Program-made: the position numbers and the translations under genes | Shown: positions 5,755-33,708 of the stretch, piece after piece | Layout of the letters: every line of letters begins with the position of its first letter | Numbering within the stretch: the stretch's first letter is position 1 | Notes under the pieces: model-generated | Told to the model about the DNA's origin: nothing | Database searches by the model: none | Seen by the model: only the letters and a program-made list of their open reading frames with translations | Virus record (IMG/VR): IMGVR_UViG_3300027759_000171 | Coordinates: 1 to 40,774 of that record | DNA: 40,774 nt | Source of the DNA: a virus | Strand: one strand, 5' to 3'

Positions 5755-7614
5755 ATGGATATTTCACAAAAAATTTTGAGTAATATAACGGTGTATATGA
5801 AATACGCTAAATTTGTCCCCGAATTAAATAGGCGGGAAACGTGGGTAGAATTGGTATCTAGAAATAAAGAAATGCACCAAAAAAGATACCCAAATATTAA
5901 AGAAGAAATTGAAAACGTATACAAAATGGTATACGATAAGAAAATTCTTCCGTCAATGAGATCATTACAATTTGGTGGGAAACCAATTGAGATTTCACCA
6001 AACAGAGTTTACAATTGTGCTTATATGCCAATTGACCATCCAGATGCGTTCTCTGAGACTATGTTCTTATTGTTAGGTGGTACAGGAGTTGGATTCTCAG
6101 TACAAAAACACCACATTGAAAAATTACCTGAGATTAAAAAACCAAACCCATCAAGAACAAGACGTTATCTTATTGGTGATAGTATTGAGGGATGGGCAGA
6201 TGCAATCAAAGTATTGGTTGAATCTTATTTAGGGGTTAAATCATCAACACCTATATTTGATTTCTCTGACATTCGTCAAAAAGGAGCATTGTTGGTTACT
6301 TCAGGTGGTAAAGCCCCTGGACCGCAACCACTTAAAGATTGTGTTCACAATATTACTAAAGTGTTTGAAAACAAAAAAGACGGTGAAAAATTATCACCTA
6401 TTGAGACTCATGATATTGTATGTCATATTGCAGATGCGGTATTAGCGGGTGGTATCAGAAGAGCGGCGTTAATTTCATTATTCTCTGCTGACGATGAGGA
6501 AATGATTTCTTGTAAATCAGGAAATTGGTGGGAACAAAACGCACAAAGAGGTAGATCTAATAACTCAGCAGTTCTTCTTCGTCACAAAATTACTAAAGAA
6601 TTCTTTATGGATCTTTGGAAAAGAATTGAGTTATCAGGAGCAGGGGAACCTGGTATCTATTTGTCAAACGACAAAGATTGGGGAACTAATCCATGTTGTG
6701 AGATTGCACTTCGTCCTAACCAATTCTGTAACTTATGTGAAGTAAACGCCTCTGACATTGAATCACAAGAAGATTTTGAATCAAGAGTTAAAGGTGCGGC
6801 GTTCATCGGAACATTACAAGCGGGTTATACCGATTTTCATTACCTAAGAGACGTTTGGAAAAGAACAACTGAAAAAGATGCACTTATTGGTGTTGGAATG
6901 ACAGGAATTGGTTCAGGTGTTGTTTTAGGTTATGATATGAAAGCGGCGGCTGAAATTGTTAAACTTGAAAACGAAAGAGTCGCTAAACTTATTGGTATTA
7001 ACAAATCCGCAAGATCAACAACCGTTAAACCATCAGGAACGTCATCATTGGTGTTGGGAACTTCTTCAGGTATCCACGCATGGCACAATGACTTCTACAT
7101 AAGAAGACTACGTGTTGGTAAAAACGAGGCTATCTACCCTTATTTACTTAACAACCATCCTGAGTTAGTTGAAGATGAATTCTTCCGTCCTCACGATACC
7201 GCAGTTATCTCTATCCCACAAAAATCACCACAAGGTTCAATCCTTAGACATGAGTCAGTATTCCAAATGTTGGAACGTGTTAAGAAAGTATCACAAGAGT
7301 GGGTTAGATCTGGTCACAGAACGGGACAGAACACACACAACGTATCTGCCACGATTTCTGTGAAAGAAGATGAGTGGGACTTGGTAGGTGAATGGATGTG
7401 GAACAATAGAAAATTCTATAACGGTTTATCAGTGTTACCATACAACGGAGGAACTTACACTCAAGCACCATTTGAGGATTGTACAGAAGAAGATTTTGAA
7501 AGATTGTTAAGTACATTGGAAGATGTGGATCTTACAAAAGTAATTGAGTTACAAGATAACACGGACTTAAGAGGTGAAATTGCGTGTGGGGCTAATGGAT
7601 GTGAAATTTCTTAA
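5755..7614 (+). CDS. nrdJ: Class II (adenosylcobalamin-dependent) ribonucleotide reductase
   Basis: 619 residues. The cysteine set matches the monomeric B12-dependent ribonucleoside-triphosphate reductase: C88 (VYNCAYMP) and C325 (QFCNLC) as the redox pair, C314 in NPCCEI as the thiyl-radical cysteine, and a C-terminal C611-x4-C616 pair that re-reduces the active site. The 11-residue spacing from C314 to C325 equals that of C408 and C419 in the Lactobacillus enzyme. Other family stretches are SMRSLQFGG, GGTGVGFSVQ and TVKPSGTSSLVLG. It makes deoxynucleotides for phage replication, without oxygen or a small subunit, but needs host cobalamin. It is shorter than the Lactobacillus enzyme (739), probably through trimmed inserts. 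No cobalamin riboswitch fits in the 31-base gap upstream. A terminator follows at 7647-7677. Confidence 0.9.
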   Translation: MDISQKILSNITVYMKYAKFVPELNRRETWVELVSRNKEMHQKRYPNIKEEIENVYKMVYDKKILPSMRSLQFGGKPIEISPNRVYNCAYMPIDHPDAFSETMFLLLGGTGVGFSVQKHHIEKLPEIKKPNPSRTRRYLIGDSIEGWADAIKVLVESYLGVKSSTPIFDFSDIRQKGALLVTSGGKAPGPQPLKDCVHNITKVFENKKDGEKLSPIETHDIVCHIADAVLAGGIRRAALISLFSADDEEMISCKSGNWWEQNAQRGRSNNSAVLLRHKITKEFFMDLWKRIELSGAGEPGIYLSNDKDWGTNPCCEIALRPNQFCNLCEVNASDIESQEDFESRVKGAAFIGTLQAGYTDFHYLRDVWKRTTEKDALIGVGMTGIGSGVVLGYDMKAAAEIVKLENERVAKLIGINKSARSTTVKPSGTSSLVLGTSSGIHAWHNDFYIRRLRVGKNEAIYPYLLNNHPELVEDEFFRPHDTAVISIPQKSPQGSILRHESVFQMLERVKKVSQEWVRSGHRTGQNTHNVSATISVKEDEWDLVGEWMWNNRKFYNGLSVLPYNGGTYTQAPFEDCTEEDFERLLSTLEDVDLTKVIELQDNTDLRGEIACGANGCEIS

Positions 7615-7985: not shown

Positions 7986-8444
7986 ATGGCAAATGGAATC
8001 ACATATGGAATAAATTTTCCTTTTAGAGAATCTTACGTTGGTAAATATTTGGATGTTTCAGATAATACCGATGAAGAAGTTAGAAGTAATTTAGTTCATT
8101 TATTGTTAACTAGAAAAGGGTACAGATATTATCTTCCTGATTTTGGAACAAGATTGTATGAATATATTTTTGAACCTCTTGATGGGCCTACATTTAGTGA
8201 AATTGAGGGTGAGATTAGAGACTCAGTTGAAAAATATATGCCAGGTGTACAGATAACAAACATTTCAATAACCGACGCTTCTTTAGGTGAAGAGGATGAG
8301 GGTACTTTTATTAATTCTAATGGAGATAGGGAATTTAAAGTACAAGGTATAGGCGAAAAAGAACATACCGCAAAAATTAAAATAGACTATAAGGTCACAA
8401 ATCAAGCCTTTGAAAGTAGTGATTTTGTTATTATCAATATTTAA
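7986..8444 (+). CDS. 25: Baseplate wedge protein gp25-like
   Basis: 152 residues of the gp25/GPW family. Family hallmarks are the N-terminal INFPFRES segment, EEVRSNLVHLLLTRKGYRYYLPDFGTRL (the R-x-N-L.. then PdFG turn) and the EYIFEPL / DSVEKYMPGVQI stretch. gp25 joins the inner baseplate wedge to the sheath and starts sheath polymerisation in contractile tails; the old lysozyme label for the family is not supported functionally. It is a little longer than T4 gp25 (132) because of an acidic loop (GEEDEGTFINSNGDRE). First gene of the virion operon, with gp6 6 bases downstream as in many contractile-tail phages. Confidence 0.9.
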   Translation: MANGITYGINFPFRESYVGKYLDVSDNTDEEVRSNLVHLLLTRKGYRYYLPDFGTRLYEYIFEPLDGPTFSEIEGEIRDSVEKYMPGVQITNISITDASLGEEDEGTFINSNGDREFKVQGIGEKEHTAKIKIDYKVTNQAFESSDFVIINI

Positions 8445-8450
8445 TAGTAT

Positions 8451-10289
8451 ATGGCTGAGAAAAAAATATCCTACACAACCAGAGACTTTCAAGGAATAAG
8501 AACTGAGTTAATTAACTTTACAAGAACTTATTATCCTGATTTGGTACAAAATTTTAACGATGCTGGGGTTTTCTCAGTAATGTTAGATTTAAACGCTGCC
8601 GTTACAGATAACCTACAATTTAATATTGATAGAAGTATCCAAGAAACGGTATTACAATTTGCTCAACAAAAATCTTCAGTATATAATATCGCTAAGACTT
8701 ACGGGTTAAAAATTCCGGGTCAAAGACCTTCGGTGGCATTAGTAGATTTCGCAATAACGGTTCCCGCATTTGGTGATAGAGAAGATTTAAGATATTGTGG
8801 TATTCTAAGAAGAGGATCCCAAGTAAGTGGTGCAGGACAACCATTTGAAACTGTCTATGATATTGATTTTGCTTCGGCAATAAATTCTGAAGGAACCTTA
8901 AATAGATTAAAAACACCTAACTTTGATGCTAATGGTAGAATATTAAATTATACTATTACAAAAAGAGAAGTTGTCGTAAACGGGTTTACAAAAGTATTCA
9001 AACGGGTTATTACACCAAATGATGTAAAACCATTCTTTGAATTATTCTTACCTGAAAAAAATGTTTTAGGAATAACAAGTGTTCTTTTAAAAGACGGGAC
9101 TCAATATAATACAATCCCAAATCCACAAGATTTTTTAGGGTTAGACAATAGATGGTATGAGGTTAAGGCACTTGCCGAAGACAGAGTATTCATTGAAGAC
9201 CCAACTAAAGCATCTGATCAACCTGGAATTAAGGTTGGTAAATATATTTTAACTAATACTAAATTTACATCTGAATATACACCTGAAGGTTATTTAAAAA
9301 TGACATTTGGTGGTGGTAACGTTTCTGCGGAAGAACAACTTAGAGATTTTGCAAGATCAGGTAAAGGATTTGATTTAAATAAATATTCTAACAATTTAGC
9401 ATTAGGTGCGGCTCTTAAATCAAACTCAACATTGTTCATACAGTACAGAGTTGGTGGAGGACAAGCAACTAATTTAGGTATTAATGTAATCAATCAAATT
9501 GGTACGGTATCATTCTTTGTTAATGGTCCTTCAGAAAGTGTTAACAGATCTGTAATTAATACATTGAAATGTAATAACGTTACTGCGGCGATTGGAGGGG
9601 CAAACGCACCAACACTTGAAGAAGTAAGAAATATGGTATCATATAACTTCTCAGCACAAAATAGAGCGGTTACAATAAATGATTACGAATCAATTATTAG
9701 AACAATGCCTTCTCAGTTTGGAGCACCAGCAAAAGTTGCAATTACTGAAGAGAATAATATGATAAAGATAAAAATGTTATCTTATGATACAAGTGGTAAT
9801 TTAACTGACACGGTTTCTAATACATTAAAAAGTAATGTGGCAAACTACCTTTCAAACTATAGAATGATTAACGACTACATCTCGATTGAAAGTGCAAACC
9901 CAATTGACTTGTCGGTTAATGTTGATGTTGTGTTGGACGCTAGTCAAAATCAAGGAGCGATTGTGTCTAAAATTATTGATATTATCACAACATACTTTAG
10001 TCCAACAAAAAGACAATTGGGTCAAAATGTTGTTGTGTCGGAATTAAGAAGATTAATCCAAGCGGAAAATGGGGTAATAAGTATTTCAGATATGGAATTC
10101 TTCAATAAAGTTGGAGGTCAATATTCCTCAAATCAAACATCTCAGAAATATTCTAATCCGGCAACAAAACAAATACAGTTAATTGCGGACACAATTTTTG
10201 CTGAACCTACACAAATTTATCAAATTAGATACCCTAACAAAGACATAAATGTTAGAGTTATCAATTTAAGTACAGTTAATTTCTCCTGA
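8451..10289 (+). CDS. 6: Baseplate wedge protein gp6 / baseplate J-like
   Basis: 612 residues, close to T4 gp6 (660). The N-terminus (SYTTRDFQGIRTELINFTRTYYPDL followed by NDAGVFSVMLDLNAAVTDNL) is typical of gp6/BppJ proteins. The centre has the family stretch NMVSYNFSAQNRAVTINDYESII, and the C-terminal part contains the conserved DVVLD..Q...IVSKIIDIITTYFSPTKRQLGQ region. gp6 dimers form the iris around the tail tube and tie the six wedges together. The order gp25-gp6 supports the call. The next 71 bases hold an AT-rich gap with a small palindrome (10314-10330) and a TATTTATC box. Confidence 0.88.
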   Translation: MAEKKISYTTRDFQGIRTELINFTRTYYPDLVQNFNDAGVFSVMLDLNAAVTDNLQFNIDRSIQETVLQFAQQKSSVYNIAKTYGLKIPGQRPSVALVDFAITVPAFGDREDLRYCGILRRGSQVSGAGQPFETVYDIDFASAINSEGTLNRLKTPNFDANGRILNYTITKREVVVNGFTKVFKRVITPNDVKPFFELFLPEKNVLGITSVLLKDGTQYNTIPNPQDFLGLDNRWYEVKALAEDRVFIEDPTKASDQPGIKVGKYILTNTKFTSEYTPEGYLKMTFGGGNVSAEEQLRDFARSGKGFDLNKYSNNLALGAALKSNSTLFIQYRVGGGQATNLGINVINQIGTVSFFVNGPSESVNRSVINTLKCNNVTAAIGGANAPTLEEVRNMVSYNFSAQNRAVTINDYESIIRTMPSQFGAPAKVAITEENNMIKIKMLSYDTSGNLTDTVSNTLKSNVANYLSNYRMINDYISIESANPIDLSVNVDVVLDASQNQGAIVSKIIDIITTYFSPTKRQLGQNVVVSELRRLIQAENGVISISDMEFFNKVGGQYSSNQTSQKYSNPATKQIQLIADTIFAEPTQIYQIRYPNKDINVRVINLSTVNFS

Positions 10290-10360: not shown

Positions 10361-13300
10361 ATGGTAAAATCACATAGAATAAGGACACAAGTCGGTGTCG
10401 ACAAATACATCAACGTAAAGTTAGACCAAGATTTTGATTTTTTAGAAATCCTATCTTTGAAAATTAACCAATCGGATCTCTATATGAAGGTATGTTCTGA
10501 CTATGGGGTTGTAGTTGGTAGGGTTGTGGTAAACGGTGGTTTTGGGTTACCAAATGCTAAAGTGTCTATATTCATACCATTAACACCTGAAGACGAATTA
10601 AACCCGACCATATCTGAATTATATCCGTATAAAACTTTATCTGATAATAATGAGGCTGGATATAGATATAACCTATTACCTCACGATCCCTCATATAGTG
10701 TTCATGCGGCAACAGGGACATTCCCAAACAGGGAAGAAGTTTTATTAGACCAAACTTATATTGAGGTTTATGACAAATACTACAAGTATACCGTTAAAAC
10801 AAATGATAGTGGTGATTATATGATATTTGGAGTTCCTGTTGGGACTCAAACTGTTTTCATGGATGTTGATTTATCTGATATTGGGTGTTTTTCATTAACA
10901 CCACAAGATTTAATTAATGCAGGGCAAGCGACTGAAACACAAGTTAATGGGTCAACATTTAAGAAGTCATCTAATTTAAGTGAATTACCACAAATTAAAA
11001 CATTAAATAAAAATGTTGACATTTCTCCTCTTTGGGGACAAGAAGACATTTGTCAAATAGGTATTACGAGAGTTGACTTTGATTTAACTAATGAAGCAAA
11101 CGTAACAATTAGACCTAATGCTATTTTCATGGGGTCTCTTATTTCCACAACCAATGATGATGCCCTTAAAACAAATTGTAAACCAAAAAACAATACGGGT
11201 AATTTATGTGAGTTAATTGCAGGTCCTGGACAAATATTATCTATTAGACAAACAATTTACCCCGATAAAAATAATTTACCAATTCTTGAGGAATATAAGT
11301 TTGAACAAGATGGTAAAGTTATAGATGGGGATGGATCATTTTTGGCAAATGTTCCGATGAATTTGGATTATATTATAACAAACGAATTTGGGGAACAGGT
11401 AATTTCTAATGACCCCACTAAGGGAATCCCAACAAAAGGAAGATATAGGTTTAAATTTAAATGGAGTAACGAAGGTGGGTTACAAAACGAATTCCAACGA
11501 GCAAATTTCTTAGTTCCAAATATTAAAGAGTATGGTTGGACATCAAGTAGTATGGATCCATTTGATCCAAGTTCAACAACACCATTCTCTATTGTAATGC
11601 CGTCAACATTTCCTATTAATCCACCACAATACACAGGGTCAACAATTGCAACAACTAATGGTGGTCTTTTATTTGGGGATTCTGTTAACAGTAAGAAGTT
11701 TACAATCTATATTGATAGTGGTAGTGGTCCACAACCATATTATGGTGATATAACAGTTATACCTGTTAACGCTGGTGATATTATTTTGGCGGTTTCTGAA
11801 CCAACAGATGATACACAACAACAAGAAGTTAATTTTACTTTTTATCCTCAAGATTATTTTGATTTACTAAGATCATACACGTTTAGTTTAGATTGGGACG
11901 ATTATGTTGACCCAATATCGGCAATTAATTGTGAAGACACGTTCTACGAAATGAACTATAATAAAGTTTATACGACCGCAATGTTCCTTGATAGATACAA
12001 AAATGGTGTCTCAAGGGCAAGACATTTAGGGATTAAGGAAATTGATAATAGAACTTGTAAGTCAACGGTAAATACATTCCCATCTAATGACATCGTTAGA
12101 AATTTTGATTTTATATTTTTTTTATTCAACTTACTAATTAATATTTTAACACTCCCTTTATTAGTATTATTGTTTGTTGCTCACTTTATAGCTTGGGCAT
12201 GGCCTGTTTTAAAGTACTTATTAATCATTTTAGGGATATATTTTGCTTATGATGCAATAAGGGATATGATTGACTGGATAAACTCATTAATTGAGGTATT
12301 CGCATTTGCACCTTTAGGTGGTCCTGTAATTAATTTTGGTTTGATATTAAGAATTGCGGCACAAGCGTTATCATTCATATTCCGATTAGCATTATCAATT
12401 GCGTTTATTGTCTTTACAATAAAATACTTAATTAAGATAAAGAATTTCCCAAGAATAGGTTTACCTATGATATCTTACCCTGAATGTACAAGTTGTGATT
12501 GCGATTGTGGACCTGCGACTTTGGAGGATGATATTGATGCAAACTCAGTTCAAGATTCAATTGATTCGCAACAATCAGATAGTGTTGATGTTAACCTTGG
12601 ACAAGCAAACGGATTTTTAGCACCCGTTAATACGCCCGCATCGTATAACGTTATTCACCCTAATAGTCAAAATAATCCAATTGAAGATCAAATGGAACGT
12701 GATAGAGGACCATTTTGGGATGGTCCTTGTCTTGATGGCACTACGTGTGTTAATTGTAGTGTACCATCATTAATTACTGCGGCGATGAAACAGGATATAA
12801 CTCCTGAAGTTGCCGCAAGAGGAATCATTGACTATCAAAGAATGTTCTCAGGTTATGACATATTAAGTTCAACGGGAGTAGTGAATGAAACTATTGTTTA
12901 TAATCCCGAATTTGCATTATACCACGCTCCCCAACCATTTATATTTTCCGCTTGGGATAACTCTGGTAATGACCCAAGAGGTTTTGCTTTCCCAACTAAA
13001 GAAACATTACCACAAAAATTAAATGAATTTAACACAAGAAATAAATATTTTGGACCAAACGCCACAAATAGAGTTAGAGGGTATATTAACCCATCTTTAA
13101 ATGGAAATACTTTTTTTGAAGATCAAATTGTGTTTCTTTTGGCAAATCCTGGAACAAAAGATCAAATGCAAGTTGGTAAACCAATTAGTTTTAATGATCC
13201 ATTAAAATCTAATGGTTATGTTAACCTAACAGGAGGTACATTAAACGAATTTGGTAATAATGCAATTACAGGAACAACAACAACGGGAACAACCTCAATA

Positions 13301-15820
13301 ACGGTTAGTTGGGCTGACCCTTCAAGTATTACCACCACAACATCTTTAAGTTTACCTTTCATTATTAATCAACCTGTGATATCAAATATGCCATCATCAA
13401 TTATTGGAGATGAGATTGGATATTTACAATATCCTACCGACGTGGAATATTTTCAGATGATAACAGGTATGACGGTATCCAATTTCTTTGCTTTAACTGG
13501 TACCGCATCAGGTACATTACCAACAGACTCATTTTTAAAACATAGAATTGAATTTTTATATCCTTGTGGTTCTGGTTATGGCACATATGATGCTGGTGAG
13601 GCTCTTAGTCAAATGACAAATTATGAAAATTTTGAAATTATCATACTAAATAGGGGTGTTGACGTACATACTGCACCACAAAAAATTAAATATGATTTAT
13701 CGAGAATATTTGGAGAACCATTTGGTACTGTTATAACCCCTGAAGGTGATTATTACTTAAATGTGCCGATAAAACCAACAGGTGTGAGACCTGCTAGTAA
13801 TAATACCGCAACAAACTCAGCGGCTAATTTATATTTCCCTTCATATAATTTTAATATAGGACCTGCGGTTGGGGCTAACCCTAATTACACTGCATTTACA
13901 TCAAATTACCCTTATTATTATTTATCTACTGACGATCTTAGTGTTGCGAATTACACACCAGTACCTTCCGCATGGCAAGGATTAGATTTTTTAACAAGTA
14001 CCCCAAGAACAATATTATCTGTTTGTGACTATACATTGCCAAGATCTATTCCAGACTACATTGGTGGTGGTACATTCTTAGGATCACAAAGTAATACTTC
14101 GTATCCTCCTTGTGTTAGTAGTGCTAATGCGAATACACCTAATAATGGTGATCAGGGTAAAGGAGAAATTGGTGTTGTACCATCAGACCAATTAAATGCA
14201 TTATATTCACCGGCATATTATCGTTATGGGTTACTTGGTGTTAATTTTAACGATAAAACTAAAATGGTTATGAGAAGTGACCGATTACCTACATCCACAA
14301 AAACTGAAAATGGTGCAGGATCAATAACAGGTTATGCGGCACACCAAAATAATAATTTTACATTCTACACTGCCGATGGTATTTCTTCATCATCAGGTAC
14401 TGGAGTGGCGTCTGATTTAGCGTCAGGTAATCAATTTGATTTACCTGATGGAATAGCATCAATTGCGGCAACATTAACTTGTGATGATATGGTTTCATTA
14501 CAATGTTATCAAGGTTCAGGTAATAACGTAACGGTAATACCTCCTGACCAATGTATTGTACCTGAGGATAGAGTTAAAAAAGGATGTTATTGTTTATTAA
14601 ATAAAAAGTACATTTCAGAGTACGACGAAGATGTAAAATTATTCTTAGAATGGAAAACAAGGTTTACAATTATGTTTGCCGCTTGTCGTGGGGTATTTGC
14701 TCAAGTGTTCCAAAACAATTGGATTAATGGGGTGTTATATATGTATTCATTTAATAAAACCGCAACATATACGGTATTAGATCCTAATAACCCAACATAT
14801 AATTATTGTGATGATGTTATTGTTTTTAATGAGTTAAGTAATGGTTTCTATTATAGATCTTCGCCATGGAAAGATAGTACTCAACAATTCATTGGGAAAA
14901 ACAAACCTTTGGTTAATCCATTATGGCCATCAACAATAGTTAATGGATACCCTGGATTAGGTTATAATGAAAAACAAATCCAATTCCCAACAACAATTGC
15001 TGATTTAGGGCCTAGAGATCAATTTATTACCGAGATATGTAATAATTCGAATTTTAATGGTTACATGGCCGATCAAGTCAAATCTACATCATATCAAGAT
15101 ACATCCGACCTAATCCAAATTGGGTTCTTATCTAGATTGTTAAATGACACATTTAGACAGACAATGTTTCCTGTTACGACAGGTGGTGGTACCACAGAAG
15201 GTAAAGGTATTATACAATTCTTTAATAGTACCAGAAAAGGAGATAGAATTGATGGTGATTTTGCTCAAGCATTATCGATAAATTCCGAATGGAAAGTAAA
15301 TCCATTCATCTTTGAAAATTACCCTAATCCAAATTCGATTTATTTTGGTGATGACAACCAATTCCCACCAAGACCTGTGTTTGGGATCCTATTTGAAACC
15401 CCAACTAAGGAGTATGATTATAGAAGAAAATTAACACCTGGATATGAAACCTATAGTCATACCCCGTTAATTCAAGACTATTATGGTTTCCCAAAAACGC
15501 AAGATGTTCCCCATTATCAATGGAAAATTGAATCATCACCAAATATATTTGGGTCTGAAAATAATAACTGGTATACGTATTCGCCTTTCTTCCATAAGGG
15601 ATATCAAAATTTGGATTTTAATATTGATCCGTATTTCCAATCCTCAACAACTAAATTAGGTATACTTACCAATTTTGATGTTAGTGGACAACCATTACCG
15701 ACACCACAAGTATCGACGCAAGTCATAGTTGGGGCACCATTCCATTTTTATTTTGGGTTAAATAATGGTAAAACTGCGATTGATAAATTTGTTAAATTAT
15801 ATGTAAATAACGAGGGATAA
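10361..15820 (+). CDS. Giant baseplate/tail protein with a hydrophobic multi-helix segment
   Basis: 1,819 residues. The N-terminal part includes VVGRVVVNGGFGLPNAKVSIFIPL and later TVKTNDSGDYMIFGVPVGTQTVFMDVD, a carboxypeptidase-regulatory-like beta fold. Residues about 580-690 are strikingly hydrophobic, with three or four possible transmembrane helices (FIFFLFNLLINILTLPLLVL, YLLIILGIYFAYDAI, ALSFIFRLALSIAFIVF). A Cys cluster follows (C-T-S-C-D-C-D-C near 708-715). The remainder is beta-rich, with Gly/Thr/Asn-rich repeats, aromatic residues and scattered Cys. No enzyme motif was recognised. Position right after gp6 suggests a gp7-like wedge component, but length and the hydrophobic block do not match T4 gp7 (1,032 residues). 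The block may insert in host membrane on contraction or be a buried assembly element; both are inference. Confidence 0.8.
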   Translation: MVKSHRIRTQVGVDKYINVKLDQDFDFLEILSLKINQSDLYMKVCSDYGVVVGRVVVNGGFGLPNAKVSIFIPLTPEDELNPTISELYPYKTLSDNNEAGYRYNLLPHDPSYSVHAATGTFPNREEVLLDQTYIEVYDKYYKYTVKTNDSGDYMIFGVPVGTQTVFMDVDLSDIGCFSLTPQDLINAGQATETQVNGSTFKKSSNLSELPQIKTLNKNVDISPLWGQEDICQIGITRVDFDLTNEANVTIRPNAIFMGSLISTTNDDALKTNCKPKNNTGNLCELIAGPGQILSIRQTIYPDKNNLPILEEYKFEQDGKVIDGDGSFLANVPMNLDYIITNEFGEQVISNDPTKGIPTKGRYRFKFKWSNEGGLQNEFQRANFLVPNIKEYGWTSSSMDPFDPSSTTPFSIVMPSTFPINPPQYTGSTIATTNGGLLFGDSVNSKKFTIYIDSGSGPQPYYGDITVIPVNAGDIILAVSEPTDDTQQQEVNFTFYPQDYFDLLRSYTFSLDWDDYVDPISAINCEDTFYEMNYNKVYTTAMFLDRYKNGVSRARHLGIKEIDNRTCKSTVNTFPSNDIVRNFDFIFFLFNLLINILTLPLLVLLFVAHFIAWAWPVLKYLLIILGIYFAYDAIRDMIDWINSLIEVFAFAPLGGPVINFGLILRIAAQALSFIFRLALSIAFIVFTIKYLIKIKNFPRIGLPMISYPECTSCDCDCGPATLEDDIDANSVQDSIDSQQSDSVDVNLGQANGFLAPVNTPASYNVIHPNSQNNPIEDQMERDRGPFWDGPCLDGTTCVNCSVPSLITAAMKQDITPEVAARGIIDYQRMFSGYDILSSTGVVNETIVYNPEFALYHAPQPFIFSAWDNSGNDPRGFAFPTKETLPQKLNEFNTRNKYFGPNATNRVRGYINPSLNGNTFFEDQIVFLLANPGTKDQMQVGKPISFNDPLKSNGYVNLTGGTLNEFGNNAITGTTTTGTTSITVSWADPSSITTTTSLSLPFIINQPVISNMPSSIIGDEIGYLQYPTDVEYFQMITGMTVSNFFALTGTASGTLPTDSFLKHRIEFLYPCGSGYGTYDAGEALSQMTNYENFEIIILNRGVDVHTAPQKIKYDLSRIFGEPFGTVITPEGDYYLNVPIKPTGVRPASNNTATNSAANLYFPSYNFNIGPAVGANPNYTAFTSNYPYYYLSTDDLSVANYTPVPSAWQGLDFLTSTPRTILSVCDYTLPRSIPDYIGGGTFLGSQSNTSYPPCVSSANANTPNNGDQGKGEIGVVPSDQLNALYSPAYYRYGLLGVNFNDKTKMVMRSDRLPTSTKTENGAGSITGYAAHQNNNFTFYTADGISSSSGTGVASDLASGNQFDLPDGIASIAATLTCDDMVSLQCYQGSGNNVTVIPPDQCIVPEDRVKKGCYCLLNKKYISEYDEDVKLFLEWKTRFTIMFAACRGVFAQVFQNNWINGVLYMYSFNKTATYTVLDPNNPTYNYCDDVIVFNELSNGFYYRSSPWKDSTQQFIGKNKPLVNPLWPSTIVNGYPGLGYNEKQIQFPTTIADLGPRDQFITEICNNSNFNGYMADQVKSTSYQDTSDLIQIGFLSRLLNDTFRQTMFPVTTGGGTTEGKGIIQFFNSTRKGDRIDGDFAQALSINSEWKVNPFIFENYPNPNSIYFGDDNQFPPRPVFGILFETPTKEYDYRRKLTPGYETYSHTPLIQDYYGFPKTQDVPHYQWKIESSPNIFGSENNNWYTYSPFFHKGYQNLDFNIDPYFQSSTTKLGILTNFDVSGQPLPTPQVSTQVIVGAPFHFYFGLNNGKTAIDKFVKLYVNNEG

Positions 15821-23400: not shown

Positions 23401-23501
23401 ATATTGTGACAGTATATAATAGTGATTGTATATCACTTGATGATCAAAACAATTTTGAATTAAATGTGGGAATAAATTTTGATATAATTTGTAATCAATA
23501 A
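20484..23501 (+). CDS. Large baseplate/tail protein with a tail-protein-I-like core
   Basis: 1,005 residues. Residues about 350-475 contain EKVLQIYGRSFDETKKFISAL, LLKNLAQTLGWD and AYLFKSKGTRKSIEILLRLIG followed by APEALIEF, the order of elements seen in contractile-tail P2 gpI-like and wedge proteins, where the KGT-R-IEILLRLIG helix is conserved. The centre is beta-rich (WWF-type aromatic residues, ESTPQHRMPEQVD); the MVPATTIWNTGTKLENSIFHRQ segment near 810 is also typical of phage baseplate proteins. A Cys-rich patch follows (CDPCYAIG, CPIQSVECPIYPWG). The last about 125 residues form a domain repeated in the next gene. Stop and the next ATG share one base. Confident as baseplate/tail, exact T4 counterpart unclear. 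Confidence 0.78.
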   Translation: MAVKKYTCPPQSPSGQGTFSDNLVGLQLVDGGGFTQANFEFTTSITEKQDRNFNIGAFSSPISLDSMNIESVIESRIIQSNNFKVYPNFDLSQVTNFTLYGSLVKRISTSISHIINFFPAGLDISATLPNYSTAETAFNIQYDSVENETTFDVYIGSIRNPFDIDYSSNANRNFELLEIEVSRLRNFTVNYAKYSLFTNDNEYPVVFYSPSNNTSTTLNFVVKGNPFSGNNISYNTLIIRPNDMYVNKTFNESMDEVEQFLLNRSITPIYTSTFTVPVENEDGTINLTTQAITFPKNGQWNLDITSLAFDNYLVTLNDFAFNLDLYRTNLISRFLTTGAIKEFDTPDQKIEKVLQIYGRSFDETKKFISALSNMNNVNYNIKNDIPSQLLKNLAQTLGWDTNISPITNDQLLDSVFSTGTNEFSGLSVGMTPEELNYQYYRNLILNSAYLFKSKGTRKSIEILLRLIGAPEALIEFNEYIYIADQKINIEDFKGQYANLSGGTYTQQLPILDTTDIYYIQGQQFTGFTTTSVITDAIVNPEDYPIDEFGYPMMPTVSDSYYFQIGGGWFESTPQHRMPEQVDTTNSVFTGANPNYQTTLLPFNYGEEYLQRYRTFPYMNLGYKLRRVVDNKKSWTDTQTGLRSNFDGNFNAYYPVNSDKLVINVKNVDIFMNPAQGLVYDVWTMSRQYNYPIPNQGLNYVEPTRCNPTPNTPYPQRGGIDWTEIVPKPKEKTFFEFAQTFWHNTINVRNRQFITDGKTGGYPTPQSIYWKYLESGQAINVPNDNFTYQTMIDYVNGLGTYWVKLIEQMVPATTIWNTGTKLENSIFHRQKFVWRRQMGCQLVPVPCDPCYAIGQLLPYDCPIQSVECPIYPWGSNPQVNSFGVVLGQVLTTYLNNNGYDLNNDCLVNTLTSQWYVDVKLNGVQLIEYKFFDGYGYSVSGTSFPTQVNWLNALYDSLPQMINDGLTFNINETTNIVTVYNSDCISLDDQNNFELNVGINFDIICNQ

Positions 23502-25795
23502 TGGGAATAATAAGTACATATAGTTTTTCTATAACTGGAGATTGTACAAATGAAGGGTTAGGAGAGGTAATTTTTTCTGTAACGGGAGATAGTCCAGATT
23601 GGTTGGTTATTGAAACACCTACCGCAAATCTTAATTTACCAACATCGGCATTAACGGTAGTGAATAATGTTTATTATTATTCGGGATTAACTGCTGGTAG
23701 TTACTTCTTAAGTATATACGATGCAACGTATAGTAATTATGCCGTTGTGAATTTTTATATATCCTCAGGTACTTGCGTTTCGATTAATACGACAGACACT
23801 ACTTGTGGTTTTGATAATGGTGGGGTAACCGCAACAACCCAATCTGTATATGGTAATGTTGCGACCTTTACGTTATACGATATTGGAGATATCTTTATTT
23901 CAAGTGGGACCTCAGTAAGTAGTACATATGTTTTCCCACCTGTACCTGCAGGGATTTACTATGTTGTTGCCGATGATGGTGGTGGATGTACAGGTCGTAG
24001 TGAATCATGTATTGTCAGAGAATCTACACTGTTTGATTATGGGTATTACGTTGTAAATGATGGAAGTTGTATAAGTAGTAACGGGAGTGGTAAAATATTT
24101 TTAACAGGGTTATCCGACCCAAGTCTATATACCGTTAATTGGTTAACAAGTGTTAATGGTCAAACGGGAACTACGGTAACGGGTTTAACTGCGGGACTAT
24201 ATAATGTACAGGTTACTAACGAAGATGGTTGTATTGTAAGTAAGGTAATAACTGTTACAGGTGTGGATCCGTTAGGTATTGGTGGGTTTATGACATACCC
24301 ACCTGATTGTTTTGTAAACAATGGTGAAATAACGATAATCATTACGGGAGGAACCGCACCGTACTATATTGGTTGTTCCAATGGAGATAGTGCGATTATT
24401 TTTGGTAGTGAATATACATTTACAGGGTTATTCTCAGGAACATATAATTTTAACATAATTGATGCCGGTGTATGTAAAGTGTCAGGGACAACATCAATCA
24501 ACACATCAAATAGTTTTCAAGTATTAAGTGTTAATGCAACAAACTCAATTTGTAATGACAATTCAGGGTCAGTAACGATTACGTTAATTGGGGCAGGGTA
24601 TTACACATATAGTTTAACTGATTCCTTAGGTAATACAACAAATTTTGGGCCTACAACTAATATTGTACAACAATTCAATACATTATCTTCAGGTAATTAT
24701 GATTTAGTTGTAACTGATGGTGTGTGTACTTATGAGACAACAGTTACAATTAATAATACCGAAAAATTTACGATTTCGGCAATAACCCAAAATACTACTT
24801 GTGGGTTAAATAACGGATCAATACAATTATTGGCAAGTTCAGGTGGTACTTTACCATATAGTTATCAGATAACAGGTTACCCGCCTTCACCAACAACAAC
24901 ATTTAATAATTTAGCCCCTGGTAATTATGTTGGGACAGTAACCGATAATACGGGTTGTTCACAAACTTTAAATCTTTATGTTAATAACTCAAACGGGGTA
25001 TTATTTGATTTAGTTGTAACCCAACCAACAAGCGGTAATAATGGGGGGATAACTACCATAATTTATGGTGGCACACCAACATTCACATATAATTGGAGTC
25101 CAAACGTTAATGGACAAACAGGGTCAACTGTTACATCATTAAGTGGTGGGACATATAATTTGGAGATAGTTGACTCAAGTGGATGTACGTATACAAAAAG
25201 AGTTACTTTATCGGGGACTGAGAAAAACTTAAGTTATCAAACATATAATATTTGTAATGATAATTTTCAAAATACAGGGATACTTGGTAAACGAGGTATG
25301 CAACAAATGTTATCTGAAGGGTTTAAAGATCTTACATATGGAGATACTGCATGTATTTTAAATAGTGCAAATTTTATTGCCGACATTACTGTTGACGGTG
25401 TAAATACTCAACAATCGTTTTACGTTTCTTCAGGATTAACTGATTACCCATCTGATTATACATGGGGTCAAACAATTACTGAAGTTTTAGAAAGTTATGA
25501 AGGTATAAGTAAAGTTGAAATTAACTATTCAACTAATGAGATTAAAATATACAATAAATGTGTGGAAATAGGGGGGTGTCAACCCGAAACAATCTATTAT
25601 TTATCTGATGCAAATATAGTTATAAATGTAAAATTAGAGTATAATATTTCTTGCCAACAATGTAATATAACACCAACACCAACACCAACATTAACACCAA
25701 CACCAACACCAACACCAACCCCGACAGCCACACCAACCGCAACACCAACACCTACGGCAACAGCAACCCCTACACCTACCCCAACAGCAACGTAA
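23501..25795 (+). CDS. SprB-repeat tail adhesin ending in a Thr-Pro tract
   Basis: 764 residues. Residues about 98-570 hold six tandem SprB-type repeats (near 98-170, 183-250, 265-335, 343-417, 427-495, 505-570), each with a first Cys, an NG(S/G/E) turn, a GG/GT..PY.Y segment, a L..G.Y strand and a closing D..GC. SprB is the giant surface adhesin of gliding Flavobacterium; several of its repeats occur in phage and host surface proteins. Residues 580-722 form a separate domain (SANFIADITVDGV.., YSTNEIKIYNKC) that is also at the end of the preceding gene product. The last 41 residues are Thr-Pro/Ala repeats, then a stop. It is probably a tail fibre or receptor-binding protein; the abrupt Thr-Pro end suggests a missing or exchangeable tip domain. 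Confidence 0.82.
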   Translation: MGIISTYSFSITGDCTNEGLGEVIFSVTGDSPDWLVIETPTANLNLPTSALTVVNNVYYYSGLTAGSYFLSIYDATYSNYAVVNFYISSGTCVSINTTDTTCGFDNGGVTATTQSVYGNVATFTLYDIGDIFISSGTSVSSTYVFPPVPAGIYYVVADDGGGCTGRSESCIVRESTLFDYGYYVVNDGSCISSNGSGKIFLTGLSDPSLYTVNWLTSVNGQTGTTVTGLTAGLYNVQVTNEDGCIVSKVITVTGVDPLGIGGFMTYPPDCFVNNGEITIIITGGTAPYYIGCSNGDSAIIFGSEYTFTGLFSGTYNFNIIDAGVCKVSGTTSINTSNSFQVLSVNATNSICNDNSGSVTITLIGAGYYTYSLTDSLGNTTNFGPTTNIVQQFNTLSSGNYDLVVTDGVCTYETTVTINNTEKFTISAITQNTTCGLNNGSIQLLASSGGTLPYSYQITGYPPSPTTTFNNLAPGNYVGTVTDNTGCSQTLNLYVNNSNGVLFDLVVTQPTSGNNGGITTIIYGGTPTFTYNWSPNVNGQTGSTVTSLSGGTYNLEIVDSSGCTYTKRVTLSGTEKNLSYQTYNICNDNFQNTGILGKRGMQQMLSEGFKDLTYGDTACILNSANFIADITVDGVNTQQSFYVSSGLTDYPSDYTWGQTITEVLESYEGISKVEINYSTNEIKIYNKCVEIGGCQPETIYYLSDANIVINVKLEYNISCQQCNITPTPTPTLTPTPTPTPTPTATPTATPTPTATATPTPTPTAT
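25670..25792 (+). repeat. Thr-Pro coding tandem repeat at the adhesin 3' end
   Basis: About 20 units of ACA-CCN with occasional GCA/ACG/TTA codons, in the final 41 codons. It shares the 14-mer ACACCAACACCTAC (25742-25755) in the same codon phase with the first codons of the oppositely oriented gene at 33708 (33671-33684 and 33683-33696). Confidence 0.85.
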
Positions 25796-25860: not shown

Positions 25861-26835
25861 ATGGAAGATATTCTATTTGTTACCGCACAACCTGACGTAC
25901 CCTATTTTCATTGGCAAGTAAAGTTATATACTCATAATTTTATGGAGAATGGTATTAAACCTTGTCAGATCCATGTAATTTTTGGTTTACAAAAAAAACA
26001 ACAACCATCTCAAGGAGCATTAGAATTATGTGATTATGGATTCAATGTTCATTTTTATGACGATGATCGGGAAAACAAATCATATATACCAAGTATTAAA
26101 CCATATTTGATTTATGAATGGTTAAAAGAGTATCCTGAAAATAGTAAGTTATTTTTCCTACATGATTCTGACATTGTATTTAATAGGTTACCTAATTTTG
26201 ATGAATTATTAAATGATAACATTTCTTATTTATCGGACACCATAGGGTATATTGGTTACAATTATATTAAAGATTGTTGTGATAGATACGAAAAACAATA
26301 CCCAACATCAAATAAAGAACAACTACTCCAAGAAATGGCGGACATTGTTGGTATTGATGTTAATCTTATAAAACAAAATCAAGAAAACTCAGGTGGAGGA
26401 CAATACCTCATCAAAAATACGGATCCACTATTATGGGGTAAGATTTATGATGATTGTACACCATTATATAATCAAATGTTGGATTATCAAAGAAGGTTCC
26501 CAATTAACCCAGGTCAAATACAATTTTGGACTGCAGAAATGTGGTCATTATTATGGAATATGTGGAATTCAGGGTATGAAACAAAAATCACAAATGAGTT
26601 AGATTTTTCTTGGGCAACTGATGATATTGATATTTATAATAAAAAACCAATATTACATATGGCAGGTGTTACCGACCATTTAAAGACCACGAAATTTTAT
26701 AAGGGAGATTTCATAAACAAAAATCCGATTGAGGATTTAAGAAAGGATATTAATTTCTTTAATTATGTGGACAAAAATAGTTCTACGATTAAATATATTG
26801 AAGTAATGAAGTCATTTTTGGAAAAAAATAAATAA
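25861..26835 (+). CDS. Glycosyltransferase, GT-A fold (hydroxyproline/serine O-glycosyltransferase-like)
   Basis: 324 residues. A nucleotide-sugar-type N-terminus (MEDILFVTAQPDVPYFHWQV, with VHFYDD further on) leads to the metal-binding D-x-D: LFFLHDSDIVFNRL with D102 and D104. The later GGGQYLIKNTDPLLWGKIYDD and ILHMAGVTD stretches fit the acceptor region and final strand of GT-A enzymes; the overall look is like the plant/algal hydroxyproline- and serine-glycosyltransferases. Cytoplasmic, with no signal or membrane helix. It sits alone between the SprB adhesin with its Thr-Pro tail and the next SprB protein with a poly-Thr stretch, so it may decorate Thr/Pro-rich linkers of virion proteins; modification of host surface or DNA is the alternative. 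Family call good; target inferred. Confidence 0.72.
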   Translation: MEDILFVTAQPDVPYFHWQVKLYTHNFMENGIKPCQIHVIFGLQKKQQPSQGALELCDYGFNVHFYDDDRENKSYIPSIKPYLIYEWLKEYPENSKLFFLHDSDIVFNRLPNFDELLNDNISYLSDTIGYIGYNYIKDCCDRYEKQYPTSNKEQLLQEMADIVGIDVNLIKQNQENSGGGQYLIKNTDPLLWGKIYDDCTPLYNQMLDYQRRFPINPGQIQFWTAEMWSLLWNMWNSGYETKITNELDFSWATDDIDIYNKKPILHMAGVTDHLKTTKFYKGDFINKNPIEDLRKDINFFNYVDKNSSTIKYIEVMKSFLEKNK

Positions 26836-26852: not shown

Positions 26853-28193
26853 ATGGGAATTCAACCGATATCAATAAAACCTGTAAATGAATGTGCGATA
26901 GTTACATTGTTTCCAATGGACGCAATATGTAATACGACTAACCCAAGTACCTCACAATCTTATGATGGTGCAATTAGTTTAATGATTAGTGGTGGTACTC
27001 CACCATATAATATTACTTGGGAAGAAGGAGGATCAGGGCCAACAAAAGATAATCTTGGTGTTGGAGATTACCATGCAACAGTCGTTGATTATTATGGGGA
27101 TTTCACCGCAAACACAATATGTAGTTTAACTGCGGAAACAACCACCACAACAACATCTACTTCAACAACAACATTACCTTCTTATAGTGGTTTATGTATG
27201 TACTTCACAGATACTGTTGGTGCAAATTCAGAAACACATCAACTTTTATTCAATGGGTATTTAAATGGGTACCCTACTTGGGTATCTGACGATGATTTAT
27301 ATGATATATATTGGAGTACAGGTACCACAAATCAATGGTTAGTTAATGGTTGGAGCGATGGTATCATATATAATTCAAACACATCTACACCTCCATTAAC
27401 GGGATGGGAATTCTTGGGTGGAAGTTATTCAGGAACATTTATTATTACTGTAACGGAAGGATTATGTGTTGACAACCCTACTGTTAATATGACAGTAAGT
27501 CAACAATCACCAACTTGTGGTAGTAATGGTAGTATTATTATAACTGCAAATGGAGGAACACCATCATACCAGTATTCTATTAATGGTGGTACAACATATC
27601 AATATAGCCCTGTATTCAATGGTTTATCAGGAGGAACTTATTCTGTTATAGTTAAAGATTCTAATAATGTAACAACAACGCAAACTATAACATTATTACC
27701 CCCACCACCTAACCAAACATATCAAATTCAGTTATCAATGGTGGGACTTTATTCGTTTAATATAAATGTGACACCTACGTTACCTGTTGGTGCATCAATT
27801 ACCTTTAATTTAAAACATAACAGTGTGTTTAAAACCGCACCTTCACCAACCGTGGCAACATATAATAATGTGGTTACGGTTATTGTTAATGGATCGCCTA
27901 TTGCAACACCATCGCCTATATTAAGTACAAGTACAACGTTTAATCCTTGTGATTCAGGGTCTTTTTATACAAAAACTAATCTCACAACTTGGAATACTTT
28001 AACATTTAATTCAACAACAACAATTAGCGGTACTTATACAAAATCGATAAGTCCAATAACACCTTTAGTTCCTTGTTATTATGCTATTGGTACAACCCAA
28101 TTATTAATTGAAAATGCAGTATTACATAATTGTGAATGTTGTAACATAGTGGTAAAAACACCAAGAGAGAATAATCAGTTCTTACCGGGATAA
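26853..28193 (+). CDS. Second SprB-repeat tail protein with poly-Thr linker
   Basis: 446 residues. One divergent SprB-like repeat lies at about 25-95 (GAISLMISGGTPPYNITW...VGDYHATVVD) and a clear one at about 215-283 (QQSPTCGSNGSIIITANGG followed by TPSYQYS and LSGGTYSVIVKDSN). Between them a Thr/Ser linker (ETTTTTTSTSTTTLPS, 95-110) leads to a module with L114-C, FNGYLNGYPTWVSDDDLYDIYW and a W-rich end, similar in layout to the Cys/Trp module of the - strand gene (YSAGTHNGQIYWS...CWCLSD). The C-terminal 160 residues are beta-rich and end in CECCNIVVKTPR. Likely a fibre component expressed separately from the first adhesin. Thr/Ser linkers are candidates for O-glycosylation by the neighbouring enzyme. 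Confidence 0.76.
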   Translation: MGIQPISIKPVNECAIVTLFPMDAICNTTNPSTSQSYDGAISLMISGGTPPYNITWEEGGSGPTKDNLGVGDYHATVVDYYGDFTANTICSLTAETTTTTTSTSTTTLPSYSGLCMYFTDTVGANSETHQLLFNGYLNGYPTWVSDDDLYDIYWSTGTTNQWLVNGWSDGIIYNSNTSTPPLTGWEFLGGSYSGTFIITVTEGLCVDNPTVNMTVSQQSPTCGSNGSIIITANGGTPSYQYSINGGTTYQYSPVFNGLSGGTYSVIVKDSNNVTTTQTITLLPPPPNQTYQIQLSMVGLYSFNINVTPTLPVGASITFNLKHNSVFKTAPSPTVATYNNVVTVIVNGSPIATPSPILSTSTTFNPCDSGSFYTKTNLTTWNTLTFNSTTTISGTYTKSISPITPLVPCYYAIGTTQLLIENAVLHNCECCNIVVKTPRENNQFLPG

Positions 28194-31500: not shown

Positions 31501-33708
31501 TTAATTACATATACCAATATTGGTAACCAAACCAAATTTTGTTGGATATGTTGGTGGATAAGGCGAACAAACTGTTGTGGATCCATAACCATTAATATTT
31601 TCCGTTATAGGGGATCCTGTTGTACATGACGTATAGGTAAATTGGGACAACCTGATGGAATTAGACGTAACTAAATATTTATAACAAATAGGTAGTGGGG
31701 ATGAAGCCGTTGGGGTTGGGGTACTTGTTAGTGTTGGCGTTGGCGTTGGAGTATTTATTGTAACACATTGTGAACAAGACCCTTCTGATTTAGGACCAAG
31801 TATTCCTGTTAATACGATAGTACTAACTCCTGAAATATTATTTACAAATCCTTCATAAGATATACAAGTTGAAATACCATTTACAAATGATTTGTATACA
31901 TACCCTTCAGCCGGTGTTTCACCAAAAGGATCTAAAACAACATCAGTTGTGTAATATAAGAAACCTGAAACACAGTCTTTAAAACTTTTACTACCATTAC
32001 ATCTGATGTTATCATCAAATGTGTTAAATACGACTGAACCATCAAAATTACAATTATATTGTGGTGATGGAGTTGGGGTTGCAATCATTTTACCACTTGT
32101 TGCGGTAGGGGTTGGAGTTAATACATTTACTGTTACCGATATTCCTTTACCACCACAAATCTCAGTTGCGGTAGGTGTTTGTGTTGGAGTTGGCGTTGGA
32201 GTACCTGTTACCGTTGCCGTTGGCGTTAAAGGTAATTCACAATCAAATGCCGCCTCAAAAGATATTGGTTGACAATATTGGGTTGGGGTTGGGGTTGGAG
32301 TAGGACAAGGTCCTCCATTGAATAAACCATCACATAAGTCAGGGCAATCACTATTACAAGGAGATGGACCAAATAAAAAACAATCACCGTCTAATAAATC
32401 TGATAAACACCAACAATTTTCGGTAGATGATGAAAATATAAATAAACCATTTGTTTCTCCTGACCAATAAATTTGACCATTGTGTGTACCCGCACTATAA
32501 TAGGTACCATCATAAATAACATTTCCTGTTGAGACACAGTATGAATTAAATGGACATAATGGTGTTGGTGTTGGTGTTGGTGTTAACGTCAGTGTTGGTG
32601 TAGGTGTTGGGGTTGGCGATAAACAACCTAGTTCAATCAGACTATTAAGTGAACTTTTAGACGACTCATTAACATAAATATTATTATTATTTGGAACATA
32701 TACCCCAAAGTGACTGGGTTCAGATAAGGTAATTGTTGATACAACAGTATTTGTTATAGTATCAACAATAAGAATACTACCATCGTCTTGATTAACATAA
32801 AGATACCCATTTGATGGATTATATGTTGAATCATTTGGTCCGCCAATAGATGGTATTGTAGTTGTTGCATCAGTAGTAATATCGATTGCCGTAATAGTAA
32901 AATCACTATTATTCGTAACATAAATGTAAAGAGGTGTCCCAACAATTGAACTTGCAGTATTCCCAACCGGTATTGTAGAAACTACCGTATTTGTGATTGT
33001 TTCAATTTTACTAACAGTACTATCTAATTCATTCACAACATAAACATAGTTGTTAATTGATGAATAAAGAATTGTACTAGGACTATTACCAACAGGTATT
33101 GACAACACAACAGTATCTGTAACTGGATCAACAACATCAACTACGTCAAAACCCGCGATTGGCACATAGATATACCCATTAATTGGGTTATACGTTAAGG
33201 AAGAATCCCGACCAGCATAAGCCGCTCCTGTTAACGTAACTGTTCCTAAAACAGTATTAGTTGTTGTGTTAATAACCCTTAAAAATACACTAAGATTATC
33301 TGTAATGTATAACTTATTAACTCCCGTTACATACAGAGACCCAAACCCTAAATGTCCAGTACTAATAATTGTTGTTATAACGGTATTCGTTACGGTATTG
33401 ATAACACTAATGGTATTAGAATTACGATTCGGAACATAAATATATCCATTATCTGGATTATATTGGGTAAGTGTCGTGTTATTATTACCTACGGTAATTG
33501 TTGTGATAACACTATTTGTTGTAGTATCTATTACAGAAAGTGACCCAGGAACATCAAATTGGTTAACATAAAGATATCCATTTGTTGGTACGTAATTCAC
33601 ACAAATTGCATTAACAAGAATTGGTATCGTATCTAATATTGTAATAGCATAACATGGTAATATTGTTGGTGTAGGTGTTGGTGTAGGTGTTGGTGTAGGG
33701 GTCGCCAT
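31501..33708 (-). CDS. Modular tail protein: seven-bladed YVTN propeller plus Cys modules on Thr-Pro linkers
   Basis: 735 residues. It starts directly with a Thr-Pro tract (MATPTPTPTPTPTPT) and then has seven blades of the type YxYVxN..S.T(I/V)SxI(D/N)..TNTVVSTI (about 16-358), a YVTN/NHL-like beta-propeller. Further modules follow, separated by Thr-Pro linkers near 365-383, 469-476, 494-515, 530-550 and 652-668: a Cys/Trp module (CPFNSYCVSTGN..WSGETNG..CWCLSD), two short Cys peptides, a Cys-rich domain (551-651), and a final domain (669-735, ICYKYLVTSNSIRL..NIGIC). Beads-on-string design suits an adhesive tail fibre. It is on the strand opposite to all other virion genes, behind the small gene at 33929 with a 1-base overlap. 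Receptor role inferred. Confidence 0.78.
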   Translation of the reverse strand: MATPTPTPTPTPTPTILPCYAITILDTIPILVNAICVNYVPTNGYLYVNQFDVPGSLSVIDTTTNSVITTITVGNNNTTLTQYNPDNGYIYVPNRNSNTISVINTVTNTVITTIISTGHLGFGSLYVTGVNKLYITDNLSVFLRVINTTTNTVLGTVTLTGAAYAGRDSSLTYNPINGYIYVPIAGFDVVDVVDPVTDTVVLSIPVGNSPSTILYSSINNYVYVVNELDSTVSKIETITNTVVSTIPVGNTASSIVGTPLYIYVTNNSDFTITAIDITTDATTTIPSIGGPNDSTYNPSNGYLYVNQDDGSILIVDTITNTVVSTITLSEPSHFGVYVPNNNNIYVNESSKSSLNSLIELGCLSPTPTPTPTLTLTPTPTPTPLCPFNSYCVSTGNVIYDGTYYSAGTHNGQIYWSGETNGLFIFSSSTENCWCLSDLLDGDCFLFGPSPCNSDCPDLCDGLFNGGPCPTPTPTPTQYCQPISFEAAFDCELPLTPTATVTGTPTPTPTQTPTATEICGGKGISVTVNVLTPTPTATSGKMIATPTPSPQYNCNFDGSVVFNTFDDNIRCNGSKSFKDCVSGFLYYTTDVVLDPFGETPAEGYVYKSFVNGISTCISYEGFVNNISGVSTIVLTGILGPKSEGSCSQCVTINTPTPTPTLTSTPTPTASSPLPICYKYLVTSNSIRLSQFTYTSCTTGSPITENINGYGSTTVCSPYPPTYPTKFGLVTNIGICN
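33664..33705 (-). repeat. Thr-Pro coding repeat at the start of the - strand gene
   Basis: Coding-strand units ACACCAACACCT (three to four) right after ATGGCGACC. The 14-mer ACACCAACACCTAC occurs twice (33684-33671 and 33696-33683), inverted relative to the copy at 25742-25755. Five more tracts of the same kind lie inside the gene (about 32561-32617, 32281-32304, 32165-32229, 32061-32120, 31703-31754). Confidence 0.8.

Follow-up and report, generated by a model that had tools for sequence, protein, structure and literature searches.

The window, that is the whole stretch of 40,774 nucleotides analyzed here, is a 40.8-kb part of an uncultured virus genome, and features T4-like replication genes along with homologues of gp25 and gp6. 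A protein of 1,819 aa, carrying a long hydrophobic block, is encoded next to gp6. The features described below are reported in Table 1, where residue numbers refer to this protein.

Table 1. Position, strand and supporting evidence of the features at the baseplate locus
Feature	Position in the window	Strand	Evidence
gp25-like baseplate wedge gene	7986..8444	+	phrog_261, E=3e-15
gp6 / Baseplate_J wedge gene	8451..10289	+	PF04865, phrog_219
Block-carrying protein of the baseplate operon, 1,819 aa	10361..15820	+	ORF; family in at least 583 viral loci; gp6 upstream, 577-aa gene downstream
Beta domain at the N-terminus (about residues 45-170), possibly carboxypeptidase-regulatory/transthyretin-like	10493..10870	+	PF13620; pLDDT 79-92 mostly
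Upstream flank GIKEI-x-D-x2-C566...FP-x-ND...NFD, residues 556-583	12026..12109	+	median identity 58% over residues 505-583
Predicted continuous helix, residues 584-648	12110..12304	+	AlphaFold2; counterpart helix in relative L095
Hydrophobic core helix with polar stripe, residues 584-628	12110..12244	+	102-degree hydrophobicity periodicity; 584-617 nearly without charge
Second hydrophobic helix, optional in the family, residues 656-694	12326..12442	+	hydropathy; helix 659-692 in the model
Cys motif YPE-C709-TS-C712-D-C714-D-C716	12476..12508	+	C709, C712 and C714 invariant, C716 not
C-terminal region, beta-rich, with more conserved cysteines	12509..15817	+	pLDDT >90 in places; no match to a fold in the PDB
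gp7 / tail-protein-I-type wedge gene, 1,005 aa	20484..23501	+	profile match, probability 93%, E=3e-7

Gene order and phage type

The order gp25, gp6, 1,819-aa protein, followed by genes for proteins of 577, 269, 392, 301 and 1,005 aa, recurs among the relatives (25 loci, within contig reach and the resolution of the ORF scan). The large protein is nearly always encoded directly downstream of gp6, the exception being one locus, L143, where an insert of 308 aa (6253-7176 of that locus) separates the two genes. A similar protein of about 305 aa is found in locus L138, at 3889; the protein shared by these two loci combines N-terminal hydrophobic segments with a hydrolase-like motif, GHS-x-GG. Since a tail sheath is present in relatives, and a Gp23-type capsid protein in one of four contigs, the tail is taken to be contractile.

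The nearest relatives of the window's gp6 include Flavobacterium phages. Repeats of the SprB type (PF13573), which occur in adhesins of gliding Bacteroidota, are present in two tail-module proteins (23501-25795 and 26853-28193); taken together, these similarities hint at a host among the Bacteroidota. At 25861-26835, a 324-aa protein of phrog_4417 shows about 33-38% identity to proteins of Lactobacillus, Enterococcus and Staphylococcus phages, a range which also takes in Chryseobacterium phage MA9V-3; such similarities suggest a transfer across host phyla.

The gap between helicase and gp25 contains, in the window, a 619-aa protein (5755-7614), identified by Pfam as a ribonucleotide reductase; across the relatives, the slot seemingly holds different modules, either one protein of 619 aa or pairs of about 315 and 806, or 426 and 568, aa. 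An Endonuclease VII-like protein is encoded at 2218-2811, and its first 59 residues also match a Lar-like restriction-alleviation family. The sole long gene of note on the minus strand (31501-33708) encodes 735 aa, with a signal-like hydrophobic stretch at the N-terminus and weak beta-propeller matches.

Identity of the 1,819-aa protein and its family

The label of baseplate wedge protein, given in the earlier note, applies to the 1,819-aa protein by position only: the trait it shares with gp7-like proteins is its place directly downstream of gp6. A gp7-type identity was rejected, as the N- and C-terminal family profiles, compared by hhalign to T4 gp7 and to three gp7-like proteins, all scored at or below 20% probability. 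No similarity to the 1,819-aa protein was detected by hhalign among T4 gp6, gp7, gp8, gp9, gp10, gp11 and gp53, and none to wedge proteins in the PHROGs and Pfam scans, by which alone gp25 was compared. The gp7 type is represented, instead, by the 1,005-aa neighbor, whose profile matches are large proteins of Flavobacterium phage immuto, Microcystis phage Mel-JY01 and LR756508.

The hydrophobic stretch 584-628 is long enough for two transmembrane helices, as in a tape measure of the T5 pb2 type. A tape-measure identity was nevertheless rejected, because of the composition of the protein, of its beta-rich predicted N- and C-terminal regions and of the presence of a better candidate, a separate helical protein of 650 aa encoded after the tube and hub genes. 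As judged from its sequence, the 1,819-aa protein is an extra, or accessory, protein of the baseplate operon of contractile-tailed phages.

The family is large. A profile of the N-terminal half identifies at least 583 loci in IMG/VR, and a second family profile 568 loci, overlapping the first set. Relatives were found neither in the GTDB genomes, hence in none of the host genomes or prophages searched, nor in INPHARED (50,697 phage records), when three divergent members were used as tblastn queries. PHROGs contains no relative, except for one stray match, and the family is without representative in Pfam and PDB. Protein A0A8S5LA66 of Myoviridae sp. ctPuP5, an uncharacterized metagenomic record with a predicted structure, is clearly a true relative (Foldseek E=5.5e-40, 44% identity over 392 columns). 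Matches to PF13620 at E<=0.01 are found in 14 of the 61 aligned members; the window protein scores 14.3 bits, against a curated cut-off of 32.3.

The hydrophobic block and the cysteine motif

Kyte-Doolittle values above 1.6 (19-residue windows) are reached, in the 1,819-aa protein, solely between residues 578 and 694, where they peak at 2.52. The membrane-grade block covers residues 584-694 (12110-12442), and is followed by C709-x2-C-x-C-x-C716. Its 110-residue mean hydropathy of 1.62, to be compared with 0.16 or less elsewhere in the protein, is matched by none of 2000 residue shuffles, and none of the other proteins scanned in the window features a comparable block. Both the hydrophobic stretch reported earlier at about 580-690 and the C-T-S-C-D-C-D-C cluster after it, which starts at residue 709 (base 12485), are thus borne out; the CxxCxCxC pattern occurs in none of 2000 shuffles.

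Single segments are less distinctive. On the apparent-free-energy (biological hydrophobicity) scale of Hessa and colleagues, the two best segments of the window protein score -0.6 and -0.5 kcal/mol, which is marginal and is reached in 76 of 2000 shuffles; on the same scale, at least one segment below zero is present in 108 of 120 members, vs. none of the 839 other ORFs of the same loci. The best 45-residue hydropathy ranges from 1.51 to 2.64 in the family, does not exceed 1.36 in those 839 ORFs and is 0.73 in T4 gp7: this average separates the family from other ORFs better than the free energy of single segments.

All of the 120 distinct members spanning the site contain both the block, of about 52-128 aa, and the motif [YF]P-x-C-x2-C-x-C; absence of the segment from homologues, proposed earlier as a refutation, is therefore not observed. 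Where the scan shows no block, the member is truncated at a contig edge or divided into separate ORFs, and one locus, L184, retains the block next to a variant motif, YDQCEFCSC. Identity, hydropathy and stripe counts are based on an alignment of 61 family sequences, where the median pairwise identity is 62% at residues 1-390, 58% at 505-583, only 24% in the block (52-117 aa long in this alignment) and again 62% in the Cys motif. Block hydropathy, in contrast, is maintained (mean 1.35, SD 0.32, minimum 0.58). Sequences that face lipid typically lose identity in this way while remaining hydrophobic, and this drift is counted in favor of membrane insertion. The dN/dS of the block, 0.035-0.075 vs. 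the nearest relatives, indicates strong purifying selection; along with the shuffles and the conservation, it rules out chance or a frame artefact as the origin of the block.

C566 and P574, in the upstream flank, are invariant in the 61 aligned sequences. It may be guessed that C566 forms a single site with C709, C712 and C714. Within the block, a pair of cysteines at alignment positions 667 and 682 is complete in 33 of the 61 sequences, absent in 27 and reduced to one residue in a single case; the window protein does not have it (its positions 12359-12361 and 12404-12406).

Two AlphaFold2 models are available. For the window protein, helices are predicted at 584-648 and 659-692, and the Cys region is not resolved. 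For the relative L095, modeled from the middle to the C-terminus, a 59-residue helix is predicted, with pLDDT of about 83-92 for most of the helix; short strands directly adjoin the block on either side, and the flanks, including the Cys motif, are modeled with confidence. Neither model has a fold match in the PDB at E<=0.001. The "three or four transmembrane helices" of the earlier note are hence supported as to hydrophobicity and not as to number. In many relatives a polar stretch takes the place of the second helix; because of this replacement, the first helix is regarded as the common unit. The return path after the helix is polar in relatives such as L095, so that both conserved flanks may lie on one side only with a return through a lumen, or with the helix broken into a hairpin, for which a proline is available in as many as 43 of the 61 rows (position 598 or 599).

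The first helix shows a regular pattern. Almost no charged residue is present in any member at columns 584-617. Hydrophobicity follows a period of 102 degrees, the heptad angle (permutation p=0.0012 for 584-617; none of 5000 permutations for 584-628), and over 45 residues the phase stays in a range of about 50 degrees; the same result is obtained after clustering of the sequences into 26 groups with block identity under 45%. The polar stripe comprises alignment positions N590, S/T594, S/T597, 601, 604, H608, A611, P615 and K/R618, with histidine at 608 in 58 of the 61 sequences. Mean hydropathy is -0.28 along the stripe and 2.76 at all other positions, a difference whose direction is shared by each of the 61 sequences; stripe positions were chosen post hoc, and the permutation test is independent of them. 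Periodicity is confined to hydrophobicity, no such signal being found for entropy along the helix. In a soluble coiled coil the stripe is hydrophobic and the other faces are polar, the reverse of what is seen in this family. By its residue pattern, the predicted core helix 584-628 is an inside-out coiled coil, as expected for a membrane-embedded bundle.

Possible roles of the block

The reading we favor, to which roughly even chances may be given, is that of a membrane-inserting element deployed during infection; it is based on sequence, conservation, helix periodicity and gene context. The long hydrophobic helix would project from the body of the protein, and the two conserved flanks, together with the Cys motif (C566 with C709, C712 and C714), would close the base of the projection, possibly through a metal ion or disulfides. 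Several copies would pack with the stripe inward, as its conservation implies, and with hydrophobic faces outside. Before infection, the virion would keep this surface covered; contact with the host, or contraction, would expose the helix, which would insert into the host membrane, and the inserted helices would either anchor the tail or line a channel. On these grounds we infer that the 1,819-aa protein is part of the virion, forms an oligomer, keeps its helix concealed at first and later deploys it into contact with lipid. The complete picture, where a membrane channel or anchor is built from the baseplate, with multiple copies of inside-out helices, a Cys4-type closed base, insertion into the envelope upon firing and the role played in T5 by the tape measure, is unlikely to hold in every part.

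The nearest working analogue of the family helix would be found in T5 pb2, where 46 hydrophobic residues have been proposed to provide two transmembrane helices, forming a channel in the outer membrane (PMC10038345). Compared by description, both are hydrophobic stretches within a large tail protein (PMC10038345); pb2, however, is a tape measure inside a non-contractile tail tube, while the 1,819-aa protein is beta-rich, belongs to a contractile baseplate operon and carries a Cys motif. This precedent counts for membrane insertion, as does the inside-out heptad over 45 residues. Moreover, among the proteins scanned in the window and in two relatives (there, those of the tail module), the 650-aa tape-measure candidate included, no other has a comparable segment: a membrane role would be otherwise unfilled, which also favors insertion. 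On the opposite side, the helix, 59-65 residues long in the AlphaFold2 monomers, exceeds one bilayer, the return is polar in many members, and the Hessa-scale segments, marginal and reached by shuffles, count against insertion. On the whole, the membrane-like character described in the earlier note is supported, and, between the two options it left, membrane insertion and internal core, sequence statistics lean to the membrane.

The internal core, the main rival, would correspond to a permanently buried shaft, where the helices make up the core of an oligomer, enclosed by further domains of the baseplate and at no time in contact with lipid, a possible arrangement, if on balance an unlikely one. 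The confident prediction of the helix amid well-folded beta domains on both sides, and the roughly continuous heptad phase over 45 residues, fit such a shaft. T4 gp7 adds to this: like the 1,819-aa protein, it is encoded directly after gp6 and contains one hydrophobic stretch, annotated in its record as a predicted membrane domain, yet its solved structures are those of baseplates. Location in a membrane, accordingly, does not follow from the presence of a short hydrophobic stretch in a protein of the baseplate, and the argument that wedge proteins are normally soluble, put forward earlier, is weakened by the same annotation. T4 gp7 differs in showing no profile similarity to the family and a lower 45-residue maximum (0.73 vs. 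at least 1.51). Against the shaft, the polarity of the stripe and the hydrophobicity of the other faces are opposite to those of a water-soluble coiled coil; buried cores, besides, are usually better conserved than surfaces, whereas the block is far more variable than its flanks, and its length varies too (about 52 to 117 aa).

An assembly role, where during construction of the baseplate the block would bind the host membrane or a chaperone of the phage, and would take no part in entry, seems improbable. Its model is the tape measure of the lactococcal phage TP901-1, with two hydrophobic regions of three putative transmembrane segments each, one of them needed for infectivity; these regions were proposed to recruit a chaperone (PMC5099701). 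TP901-1 differs in that the protein is a tape measure, the host is Gram-positive and membrane insertion was doubted by its authors (PMC5099701). In the present family no dedicated chaperone was identified, and neither conservation of the polar stripe nor invariance of the Cys motif would be demanded by a chaperone site. Still less credible is a non-virion membrane protein of the infected cell, found in the operon by chance: its membrane-grade segment would suit such a protein, but hydropathy reveals no signal-like segment in the 583 residues upstream of the block, and its place in the baseplate operon is fixed in the 25 loci examined.

Hydrophobic segments entering membranes are already known in phage tail proteins, namely in tape measures. 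The carrier family, its Cys-closed architecture and its location in a contractile baseplate operon appear, in contrast, to be undescribed in the searched libraries and open-access journal papers; the literature searched for baseplate proteins with transmembrane segments, mainly tape-measure papers, reports no such segment. How DNA passes across the inner membrane, upon infection by contractile-tailed phages, is an open question on which this family bears, as a defined and conserved candidate in a large group of uncultured phages. Features open to point mutation, such as H608, the polar stripe and C566/C709/C712/C714, make the membrane question testable.
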